50,029 nt of DNA from Bacteroidota bacterium. GTDB taxonomy: Bacteria; Bacteroidota; Ignavibacteria; Kapaibacteriales; UBA961. The stretch is from assembly GCA_020852855.1 (NCBI GenBank), contig JADZAA010000104.1:1-50029 (forward strand). The letters run 5' to 3'. Under the pieces are notes generated by a model. It saw only the letters and a list, made by a program, of their open reading frames with translations. It ran no database searches and was not told the origin of the DNA. How positions within the stretch are numbered: the stretch's first letter is position 1; every line of letters starts with the position of its first letter. This document shows positions 17,096 to 25,014 of the stretch, in pieces. The translations under genes and the position numbers were made by a program.

Positions 17096-18322
17096 TTAGA
17101 ATGCGACGCTGACTCCACCGTAAACGGAGAAGATACTAAGGTCGTAAATCGGTTTACCGTCTATTCCCATGGTCTTGAATGGTTCGGCATTGGGGAATTT
17201 CGCGCTTAATTGTGTACGATACAGTTGTAGTTTGAGAACAACGTTATCATTGGCGCGGTATCCGAAGCCGCCGGAAATTCCGACAAGATTCTCTTTAAGA
17301 ACAGAACTGAAATTGTCCTTAAACGAATTGAATACTCCGTATACATAGAGTTGGTCGTTGATGTCGTATTGCAGCGAGGCAAAATAGAATAATTTATTCA
17401 TATCGCCTCCGAGCATTTGATTTGCTTTAATAACGGCCAACTGTGCATCTGTAAGAGTATAATTAACCATAATAAGTTCTGCGTTAAGCGTAAGGCCGCC
17501 GGTTGAATAGGATAAATCTGCACCGACACGCATACGAGGAATATCCCCGTTACCTACGCCTGGGCTGTTAAGCGTAGTGTCTGCGCGATGATTATCCGAA
17601 TCCATAGTTAAAGAAGCACCCAATTTCAAACCGCCGGAGCGAACACCCACGCGCGCACCGATAGTTTTAAGGGATACCAGGCTGGTTCCGGTAGCGTCCG
17701 GTCTGAATTCCATTGGCTTTTTATCCGAAACAATATAGGAATCTTCGGCTTCGCCCACATATACGGCATAGTCAATTTTGGAGTCGCCAGCCGGAAAGAA
17801 TCCATACGCTTGGACAAGTCCGCGTGAAGGCAAATAGTCTTCGGGAGGGAGCAAGCCGCTCAACGAAGTTTCATATACAAACGGCCTTATGATATACGGC
17901 AATAGCGGCATACGGTTGTATATTTCATATAAATTGTTGAATTGCGGCAGAAATAATCCCGCCTTGATGTTGAAAGAGTTTGAACCTTCATATTTTACGA
18001 AAGCTTCTTGCAAATTCAAACTTCCCCAGCCGCGGTCGCTCGAATACGAATTAACGAACTCAAGATTGACAAATGCGCCGAAATTATTGCCAAGATCTTT
18101 CGAGGCAAATATATTCGCTTGTTGCAACGAGAACACGCTATTATCAATGTTCATCTCCTGCGTTACCGCTCCGGGCATGGGCAGGGTTTGCTTCTGCGTT
18201 CTAAACGAATGCGTAGCGAAGCTTTGGAAAAATCCAAAAACTTCGATGTCACTTTGAGCAAATGATGGAACGGCGCATAATATTGCCATAACGGCTACGC
18301 CAAGAAAACGTAAAGACTTCAT
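17096..18322 (-). CDS. Outer-membrane porin-like beta-barrel protein
   Basis: 408 aa, signal peptide MKSLRFLGVAVMAILCAVPSFAQ; NLQEAFVKYEGSNSFNIKAGLFLPQFN; C-terminal Phe. Confidence 0.7.
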   Translation of the reverse strand: MKSLRFLGVAVMAILCAVPSFAQSDIEVFGFFQSFATHSFRTQKQTLPMPGAVTQEMNIDNSVFSLQQANIFASKDLGNNFGAFVNLEFVNSYSSDRGWGSLNLQEAFVKYEGSNSFNIKAGLFLPQFNNLYEIYNRMPLLPYIIRPFVYETSLSGLLPPEDYLPSRGLVQAYGFFPAGDSKIDYAVYVGEAEDSYIVSDKKPMEFRPDATGTSLVSLKTIGARVGVRSGGLKLGASLTMDSDNHRADTTLNSPGVGNGDIPRMRVGADLSYSTGGLTLNAELIMVNYTLTDAQLAVIKANQMLGGDMNKLFYFASLQYDINDQLYVYGVFNSFKDNFSSVLKENLVGISGGFGYRANDNVVLKLQLYRTQLSAKFPNAEPFKTMGIDGKPIYDLSIFSVYGGVSVAF

Positions 18323-18388
18323 ACTTTACCTCCACAAAATAAAAAAATGCTGCGGAACGAACACCGCAGAGTATCTTTTGTTTAACAG

Positions 18389-20086
18389 CTATCGCCCTCG
18401 TAGTTGATGCTGCGTTGTTTGAGCGGAATACCCCCCGCTCGATACAGTAAAATTACCGATAATAGTTTGCAGATCTGACGTAAGTTTGTTCAAATCTTCG
18501 ATAGTGCGGGCGATTTCTCCTATGCTGCCCGACATTTCGATAGACGCAGACGACAATCCCTCGATATTGATAGCAATTTCTTGGCTGGTACATGCCTGCG
18601 TTTCCGAAGCCTGCGAAACCGTCAGAATAGTTGCCGTAACGCTATTGGTGCGTTCGCTTACTACTTGCAACGTTTCGCTTGTGCCGGACGACTCGCTTTG
18701 TATTTGGCGTATTTTATTTTGGATTTCCTTTGTGGCTTCGTGAGTGCGCTCGGAAAGTTTACGCACTTCATCGGCAACTACCGAGAAGCCCCGCCCTGCT
18801 TCACCCGCTCGTGCCGCTTCAATAGCGGCATTTAAAGCAAGCAGATTAGTTTGGTCGGTTATATCGCGAATAAGTGAGATAATTTCACCGATTTCTTCGC
18901 TGCTTTGCGCCAATGAAGCAACCCGTTCTCCTGATGCTTTCACCGCATTGAGTGCTTCATTAGCTTGGTCGCGCGCCTTTATTGACTGCTTGGTATTTTC
19001 AGTAATCGTATGCGACATTTCTACTACAGAATTGGCTATCGAACGCGATTGGCGGGATTGGTCATCGGCTGTGGCGGCCATTTCCGTACTTGCCGCACTA
19101 AGTTGAGTAGCTACGCTTGCAGCAGATTCAATGGCACTATTGACCTGCAACACTAAATTGCGAATATTGCTTACAGCCCGATTAAAACCATCGAAAAGTC
19201 GCCCGATTTCATCGTCGCTATTAACCGGAACGGCAACACCTAAATCGCCAAGCGCGAATTTCTCCATAGCCGCCAAGATTTCATTGATGCTGTCCGAAAG
19301 GTATTCTTGCTGATGCACCGAAACTTCGCGCGCTTTCTCCACTTGGTCAAGCAATGAATGTACGCGGTCGACCAACACATTATACGCACCGTATAATTTG
19401 GCTATAGTGTCGTCGCGCTCGGCTACGAGCTCCCGTGTAGTTTCGCCACGGCCGAATGCTTCCATTTCTTCCAGCATACGGCTAACCGATATATCAAGAT
19501 ATTTTCCTTCTGCGGCAGCCTCGCTATGTATACGTGCCGCTATTCTACGCATAATAAGAAGAATAATACCTACGCCTGCAACAAGTATTATTATATTCAT
19601 CAATGCGCCGTCGCGCACATCCAATGCCAACGTGTTGTTCGTCCCTTCCAACGAATAAACAACCGCTACACGACCGTATTTGGTACCGTCGGCTTTCGCA
19701 TCGACTGCAACGGTCAGAGTCCGTCCGTCCGAACTCGCCCCAAGCGATTTACCGACAGATTTCTTATCAATGGAGTATTTGACAGCCGAGTCTACAATGA
19801 TAGTATTTGTTTCGTCCAATACTGCTACATATACTACCGAAGTATCTTTCAAAGCATCGCGGAAAGCGTAATTAACCAAATCGAAATTGGAGTTTTTAAG
19901 AGCAAAAGCAGTAGAGGTGGCCAGGGCATTGCACTTGCTCTCAACGTATTTTTCAATGCCCGCCATTACAGACTTTTTCTGTTGTGACGGAAAATACGTC
20001 AATCCGAAAACTATGGGGATACAAAGAACAAGAGTGCTGACTGTTACTAACTGTACTGTTAGCGACGAACGGAACCAACGAAACAT
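18389..20086 (-). CDS. Methyl-accepting chemotaxis protein
   Basis: 565 aa; two TM helices, periplasmic cache-like region, HAMP-like segments and MCP hairpin tip [47 protein letters not shown] (sequence reads [51 protein letters not shown]). Confidence 0.95.
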
Positions 20087-20210: not shown

Positions 20211-20334
20211 CGGCAAGTTGGAAGATATTGTACATTTTTTTTATCAAGCAGATTAGATTATGGCTTACAGTCATATTTCATCATATCATCTCTAAAAAAA
20301 GGTATTCAATTACTTTTATTGTTAAAATTATGCT

Positions 20335-20342
20335 TATATTTG
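20335..20342 (+). promoter_or_regulatory. Bacteroidota-type -7 element TATATTTG
   Basis: TAnnTTTG 42 bp upstream of the standalone DUF2249 ATG. Confidence 0.5.
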
Positions 20343-20383
20343 TACCATAATGTTCGTTTTGTTCATCAATTTTTGATTGCATT

Positions 20384-20623
20384 ATGGAAACCAATGCGGA
20401 AAACATACTAAATGTAACCTTGATAGAGCCAAGGTTCAAACATTCCACTATTTTTGCCCGCTTCGACGAATTGAACGGTGGAGAAAGTCTGACTATTCAT
20501 AACGACCACGACCCTAAGTCGCTATATTATCAATTGCTTGCAGAGCGCGGCGATATTTTCGCTTGGGAATATCTTGAGCAAGGCCCCGAATGGTGGAAAG
20601 TGAAAATCAGCAAGAATAAATAA
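20384..20623 (+). CDS. Standalone DUF2249 domain protein
   Basis: 79 aa; NVTLIEPRFKHSTIFARFDELNGGESLTIHNDHDPKSLYYQLLAERGDIFAWEYLEQGPEWWKVKISK. Confidence 0.85.
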   Translation: METNAENILNVTLIEPRFKHSTIFARFDELNGGESLTIHNDHDPKSLYYQLLAERGDIFAWEYLEQGPEWWKVKISKNK

Positions 20624-20684
20624 AAAACAGAATCGTTTATAAACAAAAAAAACGATTCATTTACCAACTAACTCCAATTACCCG

Positions 20685-21638
20685 ATGGAAACAGCCACAG
20701 AGAACATCTTGAATGTAACCTTGATTGAACCAAGGTTCAAGCATCCCACAATTTTCTCCCGTTTTGACGAATTGAACGAAGGCGAAAGTTTGACCATTCA
20801 TAACGACCACGACCCTAAGCCGCTATATTATCAATTATTAGGCGAGCGCGGCGATATTTTCACTTGGGAATATCTTGAGCAAGGCCCCGAATGGTGGAAA
20901 GTAAAAATCAGCAAGCGCGTAATGGGCGCAGGCGGAGAAACTCTCGGAGAAATTGCCGCCAAAGATGTGCGCAAAGCACAAATCTTCAAAAAATACGGAA
21001 TAGACTTTTGTTGCGGCGGCAAAAAAACGGTAAAAGAAGCGTGTGCCGAAAAAGGTTTGGACGTAAAAACAGTAGAAGAAGAATTGCAAAAAGCCGATAA
21101 AGTCGAAAATGCACGTCCCTTGCCTTATAATGAATGGGAACTCGATTTTCTTGCCGACTATATCGTTAATATGCACCATGCATATCTCAAGAAAAATCTT
21201 CCCGATATTAAAGCGTATGCCTACAAGGTGATGCGAGTACATGGAGCGAATCATCCGGAATTGCTGAAAGTATATCAATTAACGGAAGATATAAGCTCCG
21301 AATTGACTGCACACATGCAAAAAGAGGAACATATTCTGTTTCCGTTTATCAAGCATTTGACATCTGTAAAAAACGGTACGCAAAAGCTTGAGCGAGGTGC
21401 GTTCGGAAGTGTGCAAAACCCGGTTTCCATGATGGAACATGAGCATAAAATGGTGGGCGATTATTTAGATGAGTTGCGCCAATGCACCAACGAATATACG
21501 TTGCCTCCCGATGCTTGCGCCAGCTACAGCCTGCTTTATAGAATGCTCGACGAAATGGAGGACGACGTGCATTTGCATATTCATTTAGAAAACAACATAC
21601 TTTTTCCCAAAGCCGTTAAATTGGAAAAAGAGTTGTAG
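20685..21638 (+). CDS. ric: DUF2249 fused to iron-sulfur cluster repair di-iron protein (RIC/ScdA/YtfE-like)
   Basis: N-terminal DUF2249 copy, then GEIAAKDVRKAQIFKKYGIDFCCGGKKTVKEAC (ScdA_N) and hemerythrin-like HHAYLKKNLPDI...HMQKEEHILFPFI...MMEHEHKMVGDYLDELR...HLHIHLENNILFPKA. Confidence 0.93.
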   Translation: METATENILNVTLIEPRFKHPTIFSRFDELNEGESLTIHNDHDPKPLYYQLLGERGDIFTWEYLEQGPEWWKVKISKRVMGAGGETLGEIAAKDVRKAQIFKKYGIDFCCGGKKTVKEACAEKGLDVKTVEEELQKADKVENARPLPYNEWELDFLADYIVNMHHAYLKKNLPDIKAYAYKVMRVHGANHPELLKVYQLTEDISSELTAHMQKEEHILFPFIKHLTSVKNGTQKLERGAFGSVQNPVSMMEHEHKMVGDYLDELRQCTNEYTLPPDACASYSLLYRMLDEMEDDVHLHIHLENNILFPKAVKLEKEL

Positions 21639-21700
21639 CAACTGCGCCGACATAGGCACACATTGACTCTGCCGGATTCAAGTTGTTCTTTATTGATGAG

Positions 21701-21740
21701 AGCGCGTTAGAATTACCGATTAGCGCGCTTTTATCTTTAT
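21701..21740 (+). terminator. Probable rho-independent terminator after ric
   Basis: AGCGCGTTA gaattaccgat... TAGCGCGCT followed by TTTATCTTTATT; 9-bp stem with one G-U. Confidence 0.6.
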
Positions 21741-21795
21741 TGAATAATTTTTCTGAAAATCAAACGTATTTCCGAATAGAACCTTTAACTGCGTA

Positions 21796-21803
21796 TATTT
21801 TTG
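21796..21803 (+). promoter_or_regulatory. Bacteroidota-type -7 element TATTTTTG
   Basis: TAnnTTTG 21 bp upstream of the cupin start. Confidence 0.5.
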
Positions 21804-21823
21804 CAATTCTTAAACTATGACTT

Positions 21824-22156
21824 ATGGAAGGTTATATTGGCAGAACCGAATGGAAAGAAGGAAGAGTAAAAAACTTTTTCGGTAAGGATTTGCTGTCTTT
21901 GGATAATGGATCGGTGAAATTAGTAAGGGTTGTTTCGCAGGCCATATATCCCGAACACATTCACCCCGACAGAACAGAATATGTTTATGTACTTAAAGGC
22001 TTCCCGAATTTTCAGATAGACCAAGAGGAGTTTTCGGCAAAGCCCGATGAATTCTACGTCTTTCCGTCAAAGGTGAAGCACGCAATTCGCAATTATTGCG
22101 ACAGCGAATGTCTGTTATTGGTTGGAAATATCAAAGATATTGACACCGGCTTATGA
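21824..22156 (+). CDS. Small cupin-domain protein
   Basis: 110 aa; IYPEHIHPDRTEYVYVLKGFPNFQIDQEEFSAKPDEFYVFPSKVKHAIRN cupin motifs. Confidence 0.85.
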   Translation: MEGYIGRTEWKEGRVKNFFGKDLLSLDNGSVKLVRVVSQAIYPEHIHPDRTEYVYVLKGFPNFQIDQEEFSAKPDEFYVFPSKVKHAIRNYCDSECLLLVGNIKDIDTGL

Positions 22157-22965
22157 ATACTACCATTAACTCCGACACAAAAATTGCAGATATTCTTAGG
22201 TCGCATCCCGATGCATTGGAAGCAATAATAAGTATTTCGCCTAAATTTAATAAGCTTCGCAATCCATTATTAAGACGACTTATGGCTTCCCGAACGTCAA
22301 TAAGCATGGCAAGCAAAATCGGCGGATGTTCGGCAAATGATTTTTTCGACAAATTACAGCCGCTTGGATTTATTATTGACAGAACTATTGCGGCTGACGA
22401 CATGTCCGCACCGAGTACGGTGCCCGAGTTTCTAATTAATATTTCGGCCGATGACATTGTAGAATTAGACGTTCGCGAAATATTGGAATCCGGCAAGGAT
22501 CCGTTTAACTTAATACTTGAACACATCAAGCGTCTGAAAGCAAAACAAGTTCTAAAACTTATAAATAGCTTCGAGCCTATTCCGCTTATTCAATTATTGG
22601 AAAAAAAAGGATATAAAACATATTCGGAAGTCGTTAATGCAGATTTGGTTTTTACATATTTCTTTAACAGCGAACAAATTCCGGCTTATGAACAAGAACG
22701 GCTCGGCTCCGACGAGGATTGGGACGGCATTTCAGATAGGTTCAAGGACAAAATTGTAACAATTGATGTTCGGGCTTTGGAGATGCCGCTTCCGATGCTT
22801 ACGATTCTCGATTCATTAGAAAATCTGCCCGACGGGAAGGCACTTTACGTATATCACAAGCGCATACCTGTTTTTCTTTTGCCGGAATTGCAAGAGCGCA
22901 AATTTGAATACAGGATTAAAGAAATCAGCGACAGCGAAGTTCACCTTTTAATTTTCAAGCCTTAA
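22153..22965 (+). CDS. DUF1858-DUF2249 two-domain protein
   Basis: N-terminal TKIADILRSHPDALEAIISISPKFNKLRNPLLRRLMASRTSISMASKIGGC (DUF1858 / ScdA-N like) and C-terminal VTIDVRALEMPLPMLTILDSLENLPDGKALYVYHKRIPVFLLPELQERKFEYRI (DUF2249). ATGA overlap with cupin. Confidence 0.75.
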   Translation: MNTTINSDTKIADILRSHPDALEAIISISPKFNKLRNPLLRRLMASRTSISMASKIGGCSANDFFDKLQPLGFIIDRTIAADDMSAPSTVPEFLINISADDIVELDVREILESGKDPFNLILEHIKRLKAKQVLKLINSFEPIPLIQLLEKKGYKTYSEVVNADLVFTYFFNSEQIPAYEQERLGSDEDWDGISDRFKDKIVTIDVRALEMPLPMLTILDSLENLPDGKALYVYHKRIPVFLLPELQERKFEYRIKEISDSEVHLLIFKP

Positions 22966-24261
22966 ATGTTTGCGCCCTCTCTAAATTCAGATGCTGTAAA
23001 AACAACTTCTTACAAGGTTGTTTTGCCGTTTTATTTATATGCCTCTTTCTCGTTCCTAATCGCAACTATTTTCTTATTTGCTTCGAGCGAGGCTTTTCTG
23101 AATCATTACTTCCATCCACAAATTTTAGCCATCACGCATATAATGGCTTTGGGATGGGCTACAATGATTATTATCGGTGCCGGACATCAGCTTGTTCCGG
23201 TGCTTATCGAGGGAAAACTTTACAGCAATAAACTCGCTTACGCTTCTTTTGCACTTGCCGCCGTTGGAATACCCCTGCTTGTTCACGGATTTTATTTTTT
23301 CGATATGAACATGCCCGCAAAATGGGGCGGGCGATTTGTCGTATTTGCAATAATCGCTTATTTCATAAATGTTGTTGCAAGCGCGGCGGAAAGCAAAAGG
23401 AAAAATGTTCATTCGGTGTTTGTAATTACCGCGACGGCTTGGCTTCTCATTACTGCATTATTAGGCTTAGCATTAGTTTATAACTTTACTTACGATTTAT
23501 TGCCGCAAAATTCTTTTCATTATTTTTCAGTTCATGCACATATAGGAATAATCGGCTGGTTTCTCCTGCTGGTTATAGGAGTTGCTTCGCGTTTAATACC
23601 TATGTTTTTAATCTCAAAATATACAAATGTGCGATTGCTTTGGTTAATATTCGCATTAATTAACGGCGCATTATTATCTTATATTGTCATATTTTTTATT
23701 TTCCCAAATACAATATCGGCTTTTGTTTCCGTCGGTATGGTATTGGCCGCAGCCGTTTTATTTATTTTTTATTGTCACCAAGCCTATAAGCAACGATTGC
23801 GCCGGCAAGTAGATGAGCAAGTACGAATATCGTTGCTGTCGGCTTTTATGCTCCTGCTCCCGATTATTTTATTATTCGTAATTATTGCTTTGTCGTTTGC
23901 CGCATCAGGAGTGAAAAGCAATCTTATACTCGGCTACGGTTTTGTCGTTTTCTTTGGCTGGCTAACCGCTGTTATTCTCGGAATGACATTTAAAACTATG
24001 CCCTTTATCGTATGGAATAAAGTATACCGCCAACGCTCGGCCGCCGGCAAAACTCCGAACCCGAAGGATTTATTCGATAATTTAATTTTTAAGATAATGG
24101 GGGTTTTATATCTTGTCGGATTTACTCTGTTTACTTTCGGTATAATGGATTCGCAAATAATTTTTCTGAAATCGGGATCTGTTTTTTTAATATCCACATC
24201 GGTTCTGTATAATTGGAATGTCCTGAAAGTGTTTAATCATAAAGCCGTAACAATGCCATGA
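22966..24261 (+). CDS. Polytopic membrane protein, NnrS-like / cytochrome oxidase subunit I-like
   Basis: 431 aa, about 12 hydrophobic segments; LNHYFHPQILAITHIMALGWATMIIIGAGHQLVPVLIEGKLYS and HYFSVHAHIGIIGWFLLLVIGVASRLIPMFLIS carry conserved-looking His in TM segments. Confidence 0.6.
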   Translation: MFAPSLNSDAVKTTSYKVVLPFYLYASFSFLIATIFLFASSEAFLNHYFHPQILAITHIMALGWATMIIIGAGHQLVPVLIEGKLYSNKLAYASFALAAVGIPLLVHGFYFFDMNMPAKWGGRFVVFAIIAYFINVVASAAESKRKNVHSVFVITATAWLLITALLGLALVYNFTYDLLPQNSFHYFSVHAHIGIIGWFLLLVIGVASRLIPMFLISKYTNVRLLWLIFALINGALLSYIVIFFIFPNTISAFVSVGMVLAAAVLFIFYCHQAYKQRLRRQVDEQVRISLLSAFMLLLPIILLFVIIALSFAASGVKSNLILGYGFVVFFGWLTAVILGMTFKTMPFIVWNKVYRQRSAAGKTPNPKDLFDNLIFKIMGVLYLVGFTLFTFGIMDSQIIFLKSGSVFLISTSVLYNWNVLKVFNHKAVTMP

Positions 24262-24584
24262 ACATAGTGTCTAATGACGATACTAAATGTACCGCAGCTA
24301 TCACAAGCCTGAAAGAGGTGATTGACCCTGAAATAGGCCTGAACATAGTTGATTTGGGCCTGATTTATGCGGTAAATTTTATGGAAGAGGAAAAGCGAAT
24401 TATTTGTGTTATGACTTTAACAACCGAATATTGTCCGATGGGCGAATCCATTGTAGATAATACTCGCCAGGCATTACAGTCGTCATTTTCGGATTTCGGC
24501 ACAATAGAAGTTAATTTAACCTTTGACCCACATTGGAGCTATTCAATGATTTCGGAAGAAGGCAGAAAATTTTTAGGAAGATGA
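24258..24584 (+). CDS. DUF59 / SufT-like protein (second copy in window)
   Basis: 108 aa; VIDPEIGLNIVDLGLIYAVNF...CVMTLTTEYCPMGESIVDNTRQAL...VNLTFDPHWSYSMISEEGRKFLGR; ATGA overlap with upstream gene. Confidence 0.85.
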   Translation: MNIVSNDDTKCTAAITSLKEVIDPEIGLNIVDLGLIYAVNFMEEEKRIICVMTLTTEYCPMGESIVDNTRQALQSSFSDFGTIEVNLTFDPHWSYSMISEEGRKFLGR

Positions 24585-24588
24585 GAAT

Positions 24589-25014
24589 ATGCTTAGCTTA
24601 ACTTGCAAGGCCTCTATAAAAGCAATGATTTATCTTAGCTCAAAAACGGAGGCAGAAAAAAAACCAAGCGTCATTGAAATTGCAGAGTTCATTAATGAGA
24701 ATGAACATACAGTCGGCAAACTCTTGCAGAAATTAGTGAAAAAAAAGATTATCAACAGCTCAAAAGGACCAAACGGAGGCTTCTACATAACGGAAACACA
24801 AAAAAATCAGCAGCTTATAAATATTATTTATGCCATAGACGGCAATGATGTTTTTGAACAATGCGGCTTGGGGTTGCGTAAATGTAACGATACCAGACCA
24901 TGCCCTTTTCACAACGACTTTAAACCCGTGCGAGAATTATTCAGAAAAGTATGCATAGAAAAACATATCAGCGATTTATCCGAAAATATGGTATATTCAA
25001 CATTCAAGTGTTGA
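24589..25014 (+). CDS. Rrf2-family transcriptional regulator with putative Fe-S cysteines
   Basis: 141 aa; KASIKAMIYLSSKTEAEKKPSVIEIAEFINENEHTVGKLLQKLVKKKIINSSKGPNGGFYI and CGLGLRKCNDTRPCPFH cysteine triad. Confidence 0.9.
   Translation: MLSLTCKASIKAMIYLSSKTEAEKKPSVIEIAEFINENEHTVGKLLQKLVKKKIINSSKGPNGGFYITETQKNQQLINIIYAIDGNDVFEQCGLGLRKCNDTRPCPFHNDFKPVRELFRKVCIEKHISDLSENMVYSTFKC

Follow-up and report, generated by a model that had tools for sequence, protein, structure and literature searches.

The window analysed here, a stretch of 50,029 nt from a Bacteroidota bacterium (contig JADZAA010000104.1) to which all coordinates refer unless a locus number (L) is given, contains seven genes on the same strand that encode a DrpA-like DUF2249 protein, a RIC-type di-iron protein, a cupin, a DrpB-like protein, a polytopic protein with 12 transmembrane helices (12-TM protein), a DUF59 protein and an Rrf2-family regulator (Table 1). 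A preliminary description, made from the sequence alone, had proposed that these genes constitute a nitric oxide (NO) stress and iron-sulfur (Fe-S) repair operon ending in its own regulator, and this interpretation was supported in outline by our analysis. Recomputation of the open reading frames returned all seven genes with identical positions and spacings (overlaps of the ATGA type at 22153/22156 and 24258/24261, no nucleotide between the genes that meet at 22965/22966, and 4 nt ahead of the Rrf2 gene), and profile searches against Pfam and NCBIfam confirmed every named domain of the operon. The DUF2249 domain, previously counted three times, occurs four times, with two copies in the DUF1858 protein. 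The operon combines known parts (RIC, DrpAB and Rrf2) around one uncharacterised membrane family.

Table 1. Genes and predicted regulatory elements of the operon in the window.
Feature	Position	Strand	Basis or remark
Predicted operator of the linked Rrf2, 24-bp palindrome AAAAAGGTATTCAATTACTTTTAT	20296..20319	+	25.1 bits
Bacteroidota-type -7 element TATATTTG (TAnnTTTG)	20335..20342	+	starts 15 nt past the operator end
DrpA-like single DUF2249 protein, 79 aa	20384..20623	+	PF10006, 87 bits
RIC/YtfE/ScdA-type di-iron protein, DUF2249-ScdA_N-hemerythrin, 317 aa	20685..21638	+	TIGR03652, DFCCGG motif
cupin_2 protein, 110 aa	21824..22156	+	Pfam; few homologous operons have one
DrpB-like DUF1858-DUF2249-DUF2249 protein, 270 aa	22153..22965	+	Pfam, similarity to Thermus drpB
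12-TM protein, heme-copper oxidase subunit I fold, 431 aa	22966..24261	+	profile, model and fold comparison
DUF59 (MIP18/SufT/PaaD-like) predicted metal-sulfur cluster assembly factor, 108 aa	24258..24584	+	Pfam/NCBIfam
Rrf2-family regulator, 141 aa	24589..25014	+	Pfam; C92, C99, C105 and H108 conserved

The membrane protein was searched for in 299 genomes of the same phylum, 18 of which, including that of the window, were carriers of a full-length homologue. Among the other 17 carriers, drpB was located directly 5' of the membrane gene in all 17 and the DUF59 gene directly 3' in 16, and the DrpB-membrane protein-DUF59 core was collinear in 16 of the 17 loci. When named genome contigs were scanned, the best 80 loci were nearly all from Bacteroidota; the gene finder recovered the membrane gene in 78 of these, where it was linked to DrpB (77/78), DUF59 (70/78), RIC (68/78) and Rrf2 (68/78). 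Beyond this phylum, tblastn on plasmids identified the membrane protein in Thermus, Rhizobium, Sinorhizobium, Ensifer, Mesorhizobium and Aliarcobacter, and a DUF2249 protein was frequently encoded close to it. The gene order is thus repeated in dozens of genomes from several phyla, which is more than chance would produce. In Thermus thermophilus SG0.5JP17-16, nar genes and a transporter come first, followed by DrpA, DrpB, a 4-TM COX1-like protein, protoglobin, membrane protein and DUF59; in Sinorhizobium meliloti and Ensifer canadensis, a DUF2249-membrane protein-DUF2249 unit lies between norECBQD-hemN and NnrS-nirK-Crp/Fnr, with DUF59 annotated next after it in Ensifer; in Mesorhizobium, the module adjoins NnrS, pseudoazurin and nosR-nosZ; and in Aliarcobacter, the membrane protein and DUF59 stand alone together. 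In the tree, the membrane protein of the window grouped with a genome of the same order and several Bacteroidia loci, away from the other members of its class, and the gene was missing from four genomes of the family to which the window belongs, which makes horizontal transfer likely.

The membrane protein, annotated as a hypothetical protein in every plasmid record examined (Thermus, rhizobia and Aliarcobacter), had no match in Pfam at any E below 1; in NCBIfam there was just a weak cbb3-oxidase match (1.4e-4). A profile of 18 homologues matched the cbb3 CcoN chains in the PDB (E 3e-7 to 4e-5), and the AlphaFold model (pLDDT 87.7, pTM 0.88, 12 helices) matched CcoN most closely (TM-score 0.73, E 5e-7), along with other oxidases and NO reductase (NOR). 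Helices 2, 6 and 10 share a GW...G...P motif, preceded by histidines in helices 2 and 6, a pattern that we interpret as the superfamily's pseudo-threefold repeat; one alignment paired repeats 1-2 of the membrane protein with repeats 2-3 of CcoN. Of the two resemblances suggested previously, to NnrS and to COX1, the COX1-like fold is thus borne out, while identity with NnrS was rejected (no PF05940 match at E < 1, 24% probability in the profile comparison). The protein had no transporter match and maps to the heme-copper oxidase superfamily; neither of the two refuting outcomes open to computation, a neighbourhood that is not conserved or a membrane protein of an unrelated transporter family, was therefore observed. 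Invariance across phyla is limited to two histidines, H58 (TM2, 23137-23139) and H190 (TM6, 23533-23535); H47 and H192 are kept in nearly all Bacteroidota members, but not beyond. The alignments of homologues showed no conserved histidines in TM7 and TM10, and the six-histidine ligand set (TM2, TM6, TM7 and TM10) of heme-copper oxidase and NOR subunit I is incomplete. A canonical oxidase or NOR was therefore rejected, since the missing ligands leave neither a CuB/FeB site nor the usual second low-spin heme ligand. H58 and H190 each lie eight residues into equivalent helices, so that a heme or metal shared by the two is plausible.

Two further membrane proteins were observed in related clusters. 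An apparently 4-TM protein of 144-158 aa (L134:10637-11071 and L045-L051, e.g. L046:9933-10388), encoded in clusters that also contain the 12-TM gene, is equivalent to a third of an oxidase subunit I, with an HxH-G...G...P motif and matches to COX1, DUF2871 and NnrS, and could be informative on an origin of the oxidase fold through triplication. At L038:9964-11154 and L039:6756-7952, another polytopic protein (396-398 aa), in which HAHSH and motifs like it occur, is encoded between DUF59 and RIC; the L038 copy had no Pfam match.

The DrpB-like protein has the architecture of DrpB, with DUF1858 and two tandem DUF2249 domains, and shares 29-33% identity with Thermus DrpB over up to 99% of its length (E down to 2e-34). 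In its model, which consists of alpha/beta domains, one DUF2249 domain resembled SirA/TusA (TM-score 0.71-0.75 over 70 residues, at weak E values of 0.02-0.08), and the top structural match was YeeD docked on the membrane protein YeeE, which is a structural precedent for the docking of domains of this kind on a polytopic protein. The DUF2249 domains scored 20 bits against TusA PF01206, under the cut-off of 28.6, and carry Met in place of the catalytic TusA Cys (LEMPLP in the translation). The single DUF2249 gene is a duplicate of the N-terminal domain of RIC, with 69 of 79 aa identical; the two copies differ by 17 synonymous and 8 non-synonymous codon changes and therefore both appear to be under protein-level constraint. 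RIC scored 248.8 bits over its full length against TIGR03652 (cut-off 204.7) and contains PF04405 (ScdA_N, 81.7 bits), PF01814 (hemerythrin, 69.1 bits) and IDFCCGG. In other loci, RICs carry four or five DUF2249 domains in tandem on their N-terminal side (L118:6735-8699, L067:7184-9181 and L056:6990-8729). The DUF59 family has a role in Fe-S maturation. The protein of the window scored 40 bits against PF01883 (cut-off 23.5) and has the conserved residues D23-P24-E25 and C59-P60; against the SufT profile TIGR03406 it reached 79.4 bits, under the cut-off of 202.6. As a passenger the cupin is variable: few loci have one linked, and a small hemerythrin protein often takes its position.

The Rrf2 protein scored 64.4 bits against PF02082 (cut-off 30), and its residues C92, C99, C105 and H108 (C-x6-C-x5-C-x2-H) are kept in 79-80 of 80 aligned sequences. 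We take this Cys3His arrangement to be the ligand pattern of IscR. The protein remained far below the NCBIfam equivalog cut-offs for both NsrR (22.2 bits, cut-off 182) and IscR (37.4 bits, cut-off 207.6). The cysteine triad noted in the preliminary description is part of a ligand set that resembles that of IscR more than that of NsrR, and identity with NsrR is not supported by the ligand set or by the score. Comparison of upstream regions yielded a 24-bp family consensus palindrome, ATAAAAGTATTTAAATACTTTTAT, and a matrix was built from 57 sites, that of the window among them. The site at 20296-20319 was the only one in the window above 4 bits, its score of 25.1 bits being not blind, as the site is part of the matrix. 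Of 97 loci, 74 carried the operator with a score of 18 bits or higher, and no site of at least 10 bits occurred in 700 kb of shuffled sequence. Cultured carriers of the same operator include Chitinophaga oryziterrae and Ferruginibacter paludis. Its presence tracked that of Rrf2 (66/72 loci with a close Rrf2 vs 8/25 without, p=2e-8), several of the exceptions being incomplete contigs. TAnnTTTG starts 12-16 nt downstream of the operator in 52 of 75 sites, so that the operator covers the -33 region, which suggests that it acts in repression. The common operator supports the predicted existence of one coupled, autoregulated unit.

The matrix scan of the window detected no operator in the 185-nt gap 5' of the cupin gene; TATTTTTG at 21796-21803 within this gap could be a second, internal promoter. 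In the genome of the window, a regulon search revealed no second strong site, matches with two mismatches were no commoner than in the reversed control, and no strong site was present around nosZ, the quinol-dependent NOR (qNOR), NnrS or other COX1 genes. Elsewhere, copies of the palindrome at L101:16746, before a hemerythrin (RIC-like) gene, and, weaker, at L073:4566, before a DGC-domain gene, hint at a small regulon. The 24-bp operator was absent from a second group of loci, L043-L051, from the class of the window; in five of these (L043, L046, L048, L049 and L051), the palindrome TGACTTAAGTCA is located 64-72 nt 5' of drpA. It is close to the HcpR/FNR-type consensus TTGACnnnnGTCAA given in PMC1274295, and the upstream gene at L048, the one examined in this group, encodes a Crp/Fnr regulator. 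With another palindrome and a Crp/Fnr gene, the module appears to have exchanged its regulator within one phylum.

NosZ was present in 17 of the 18 carriers of the membrane gene compared with 84 of the 281 non-carriers (Fisher p=5e-8, uncorrected for kinship), and in one family (f13) the six genomes listed with NosZ were exactly the six carriers. No such association was found for nirK, which was over the cut-off in 3/18 carriers and 45/281 others (p=1), and the nirS matches in the genome search were mostly weak, partial propeller matches. cNorB of the type seen at L052 was rare (4 of 299 genomes) and showed no correlation with the membrane gene. At individual related loci, the module lies beside nosZ (L038), beside a NirK-like copper oxidase (L036) or near norC/norB-like genes (L052), and norCB, nirK, nnrS, nosZ, narGHI and Crp/Fnr genes are neighbours in other genomes, which backs the nitrogen-oxide theme of the preliminary description. 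Among the larger open reading frames of the window itself, no nar genes were recognised, beside the drpB-like gene or elsewhere, and no denitrification enzyme adjoins the operon. The divergent genes upstream (17096-20086), which by eye code for a methyl-accepting-chemotaxis-like and a porin-like outer membrane protein, lie outside the unit. The genome of the window encodes NosZ, NnrS and a 792-residue qNOR-like protein that we read as a quinol-dependent NOR. It also contains an unusual oxidase subunit I (L145, G000:C24:35402-36703) with GHTLVNITLY at the TM6 position, which could be a non-canonical NOR. We presume that COG4309 is DUF2249. According to PMC1274295, from 2005, COG4309 is of unknown function and occurs with nor genes in proteobacteria under the control of NnrR or NsrR. 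In Haloferax mediterranei, all four DUF2249 genes showed increased transcription under denitrification (PMC11218638).

We consider it about an even bet (probability roughly 0.5) that the module serves protection and repair during NO or denitrification metabolism by means that include a membrane-docked complex. The seven genes would form a single transcription unit, with Rrf2 as repressor on the palindrome over the promoter; NO, or another agent that damages Fe-S clusters, would destroy the cluster of Rrf2 and derepress the operon, whose products would then protect and restore respiratory metalloenzymes. RIC, as a di-iron protein repairing Fe-S clusters, would be the soluble arm, and the 12-TM oxidase-like protein, DrpB and the DUF59 protein would together make up a membrane arm. 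The 12-TM protein probably carries a heme or metal at H58/H190 and may bind NO or pass electrons; the TusA-like domains of DrpB would dock on its cytoplasmic face, the DUF59 protein would deliver Fe-S or metal to the membrane arm, and DrpA-type DUF2249 domains may act as adaptors linking the two arms. Several points weigh against this proposal: the authors of the Thermus study interpret DrpA and DrpB as nitrate sensors, with DrpA in the periplasm (PMC6282519); a genome search found neither nirK nor nirS in the genome of the window; the membrane protein is without the second low-spin heme ligand that oxidases use; the IscR-like ligand set of Rrf2 leaves Fe-S status, iron or O2 as possible signals in place of NO; and the distant members of the module in rhizobia and Thermus have no linked RIC and Rrf2.

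In Thermus lacking both DrpA and DrpB, NarG is more abundant but nitrate reductase activity falls to about one tenth, and nar and dnr expression no longer depends on nitrate; DrpB is cytoplasmic and partly membrane-associated (PMC6282519). The nitrate-independent expression would fit a core that is a signalling complex, as proposed in Thermus, in which DrpA and DrpB, with the membrane protein, act as a sensor of nitrate, nitrite or NO that signals to denitrification regulators, RIC and Rrf2 being fellow travellers of the same stimulus. A polytopic partner beside DrpB would supply the missing membrane sensor, and Crp/Fnr genes are found near the module. However, NarG is mostly inactive in the same double mutant, for which sensing alone offers no explanation, and the operon of the window has its own Rrf2 and no adjoining kinase or Crp/Fnr gene; we regard a purely signalling role as unlikely. 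The Thermus mutant could alternatively be impaired in NarG maturation or repair, a reading that the conserved RIC, DUF59 and Fe-S-type regulator favour.

The core might also be an assembly factor for Nar, Nor and Nos, in which the membrane protein and DUF59 help cofactor insertion with no stress function as such, in line with the various genes (nor, nos, nir and nar) to which the module is linked from taxon to taxon and with the general role of the DUF59 family. The lowered NarG activity in Thermus (PMC6282519) would agree with this, as would the suggestion that COG4309 is important for NOR (PMC1274295). Routine assembly nevertheless seems doubtful to us, as the adjoining enzyme differs by taxon and is lacking in the window, and as RIC and an Fe-S-type Rrf2 in one operon point to damage. 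That the common theme is a coincidence of common genes, with the membrane protein a transporter of unrelated function, would be compatible with the variable cupin and with a function deduced from context, but is highly improbable given the core order kept in dozens of genomes and across phyla, the common operator and the lack of any transporter match.

That active nitrate reductase in Thermus requires DrpA and DrpB has been known since 2018, but no partner of theirs was known before; the operon supplies candidates, the oxidase-like membrane protein and the DUF59 factor, and its predicted regulator and exact operator make the role of the module directly testable. The membrane family would moreover extend, by one branch, a superfamily that is central to both respiration and NO reduction. 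In the open-access papers searched, neither the membrane family nor the operator nor the module as a whole was found described, and a literature search by rhizobial locus tags returned nothing. The passages of PMC1274295 considered here, on the COG4309-nor system, assign no role to the membrane protein or DUF59 and contain no such Bacteroidota operator. The regulator shares with NsrR and IscR the Rrf2 family, three cysteines and a palindromic site, and with IscR the candidate fourth ligand H108, but its half-sites (AAGTAT-N4-ATACTT) differ from those of NsrR (gATGyAT-N5-ATrCATc; PMC1274295). The RICs of the module resemble RIC/YtfE/ScdA in having ScdA_N with DFCCGG and hemerythrin, over the TIGR03652 cut-off, but carry one to five DUF2249 domains N-terminally. 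Like NnrS, the membrane protein is polytopic, is found in the same gene clusters and has similar short H...G...P motifs; it differs in having no Pfam match, and a separate NnrS gene is present in the genome of the window and beside the module in rhizobia. With cbb3 CcoN and NorB it shares the 12-TM fold and the pseudo-repeat motif H(x)H-G-GW...P, whereas the TM7/TM10 histidines are not conserved and the longest sequence alignment is offset by one four-helix repeat. In Thermus, where drpAB is described as bicistronic with a nitrate-sensing role (PMC6282519), a 4-TM COX1-like protein and protoglobin are encoded between drpB and the membrane gene, nar is adjacent and no RIC or Rrf2 is linked, but the domain makeup of DrpA and DrpB is the same, DrpB is about 30% identical, and a homologous membrane protein and a DUF59 gene follow later in the cluster.

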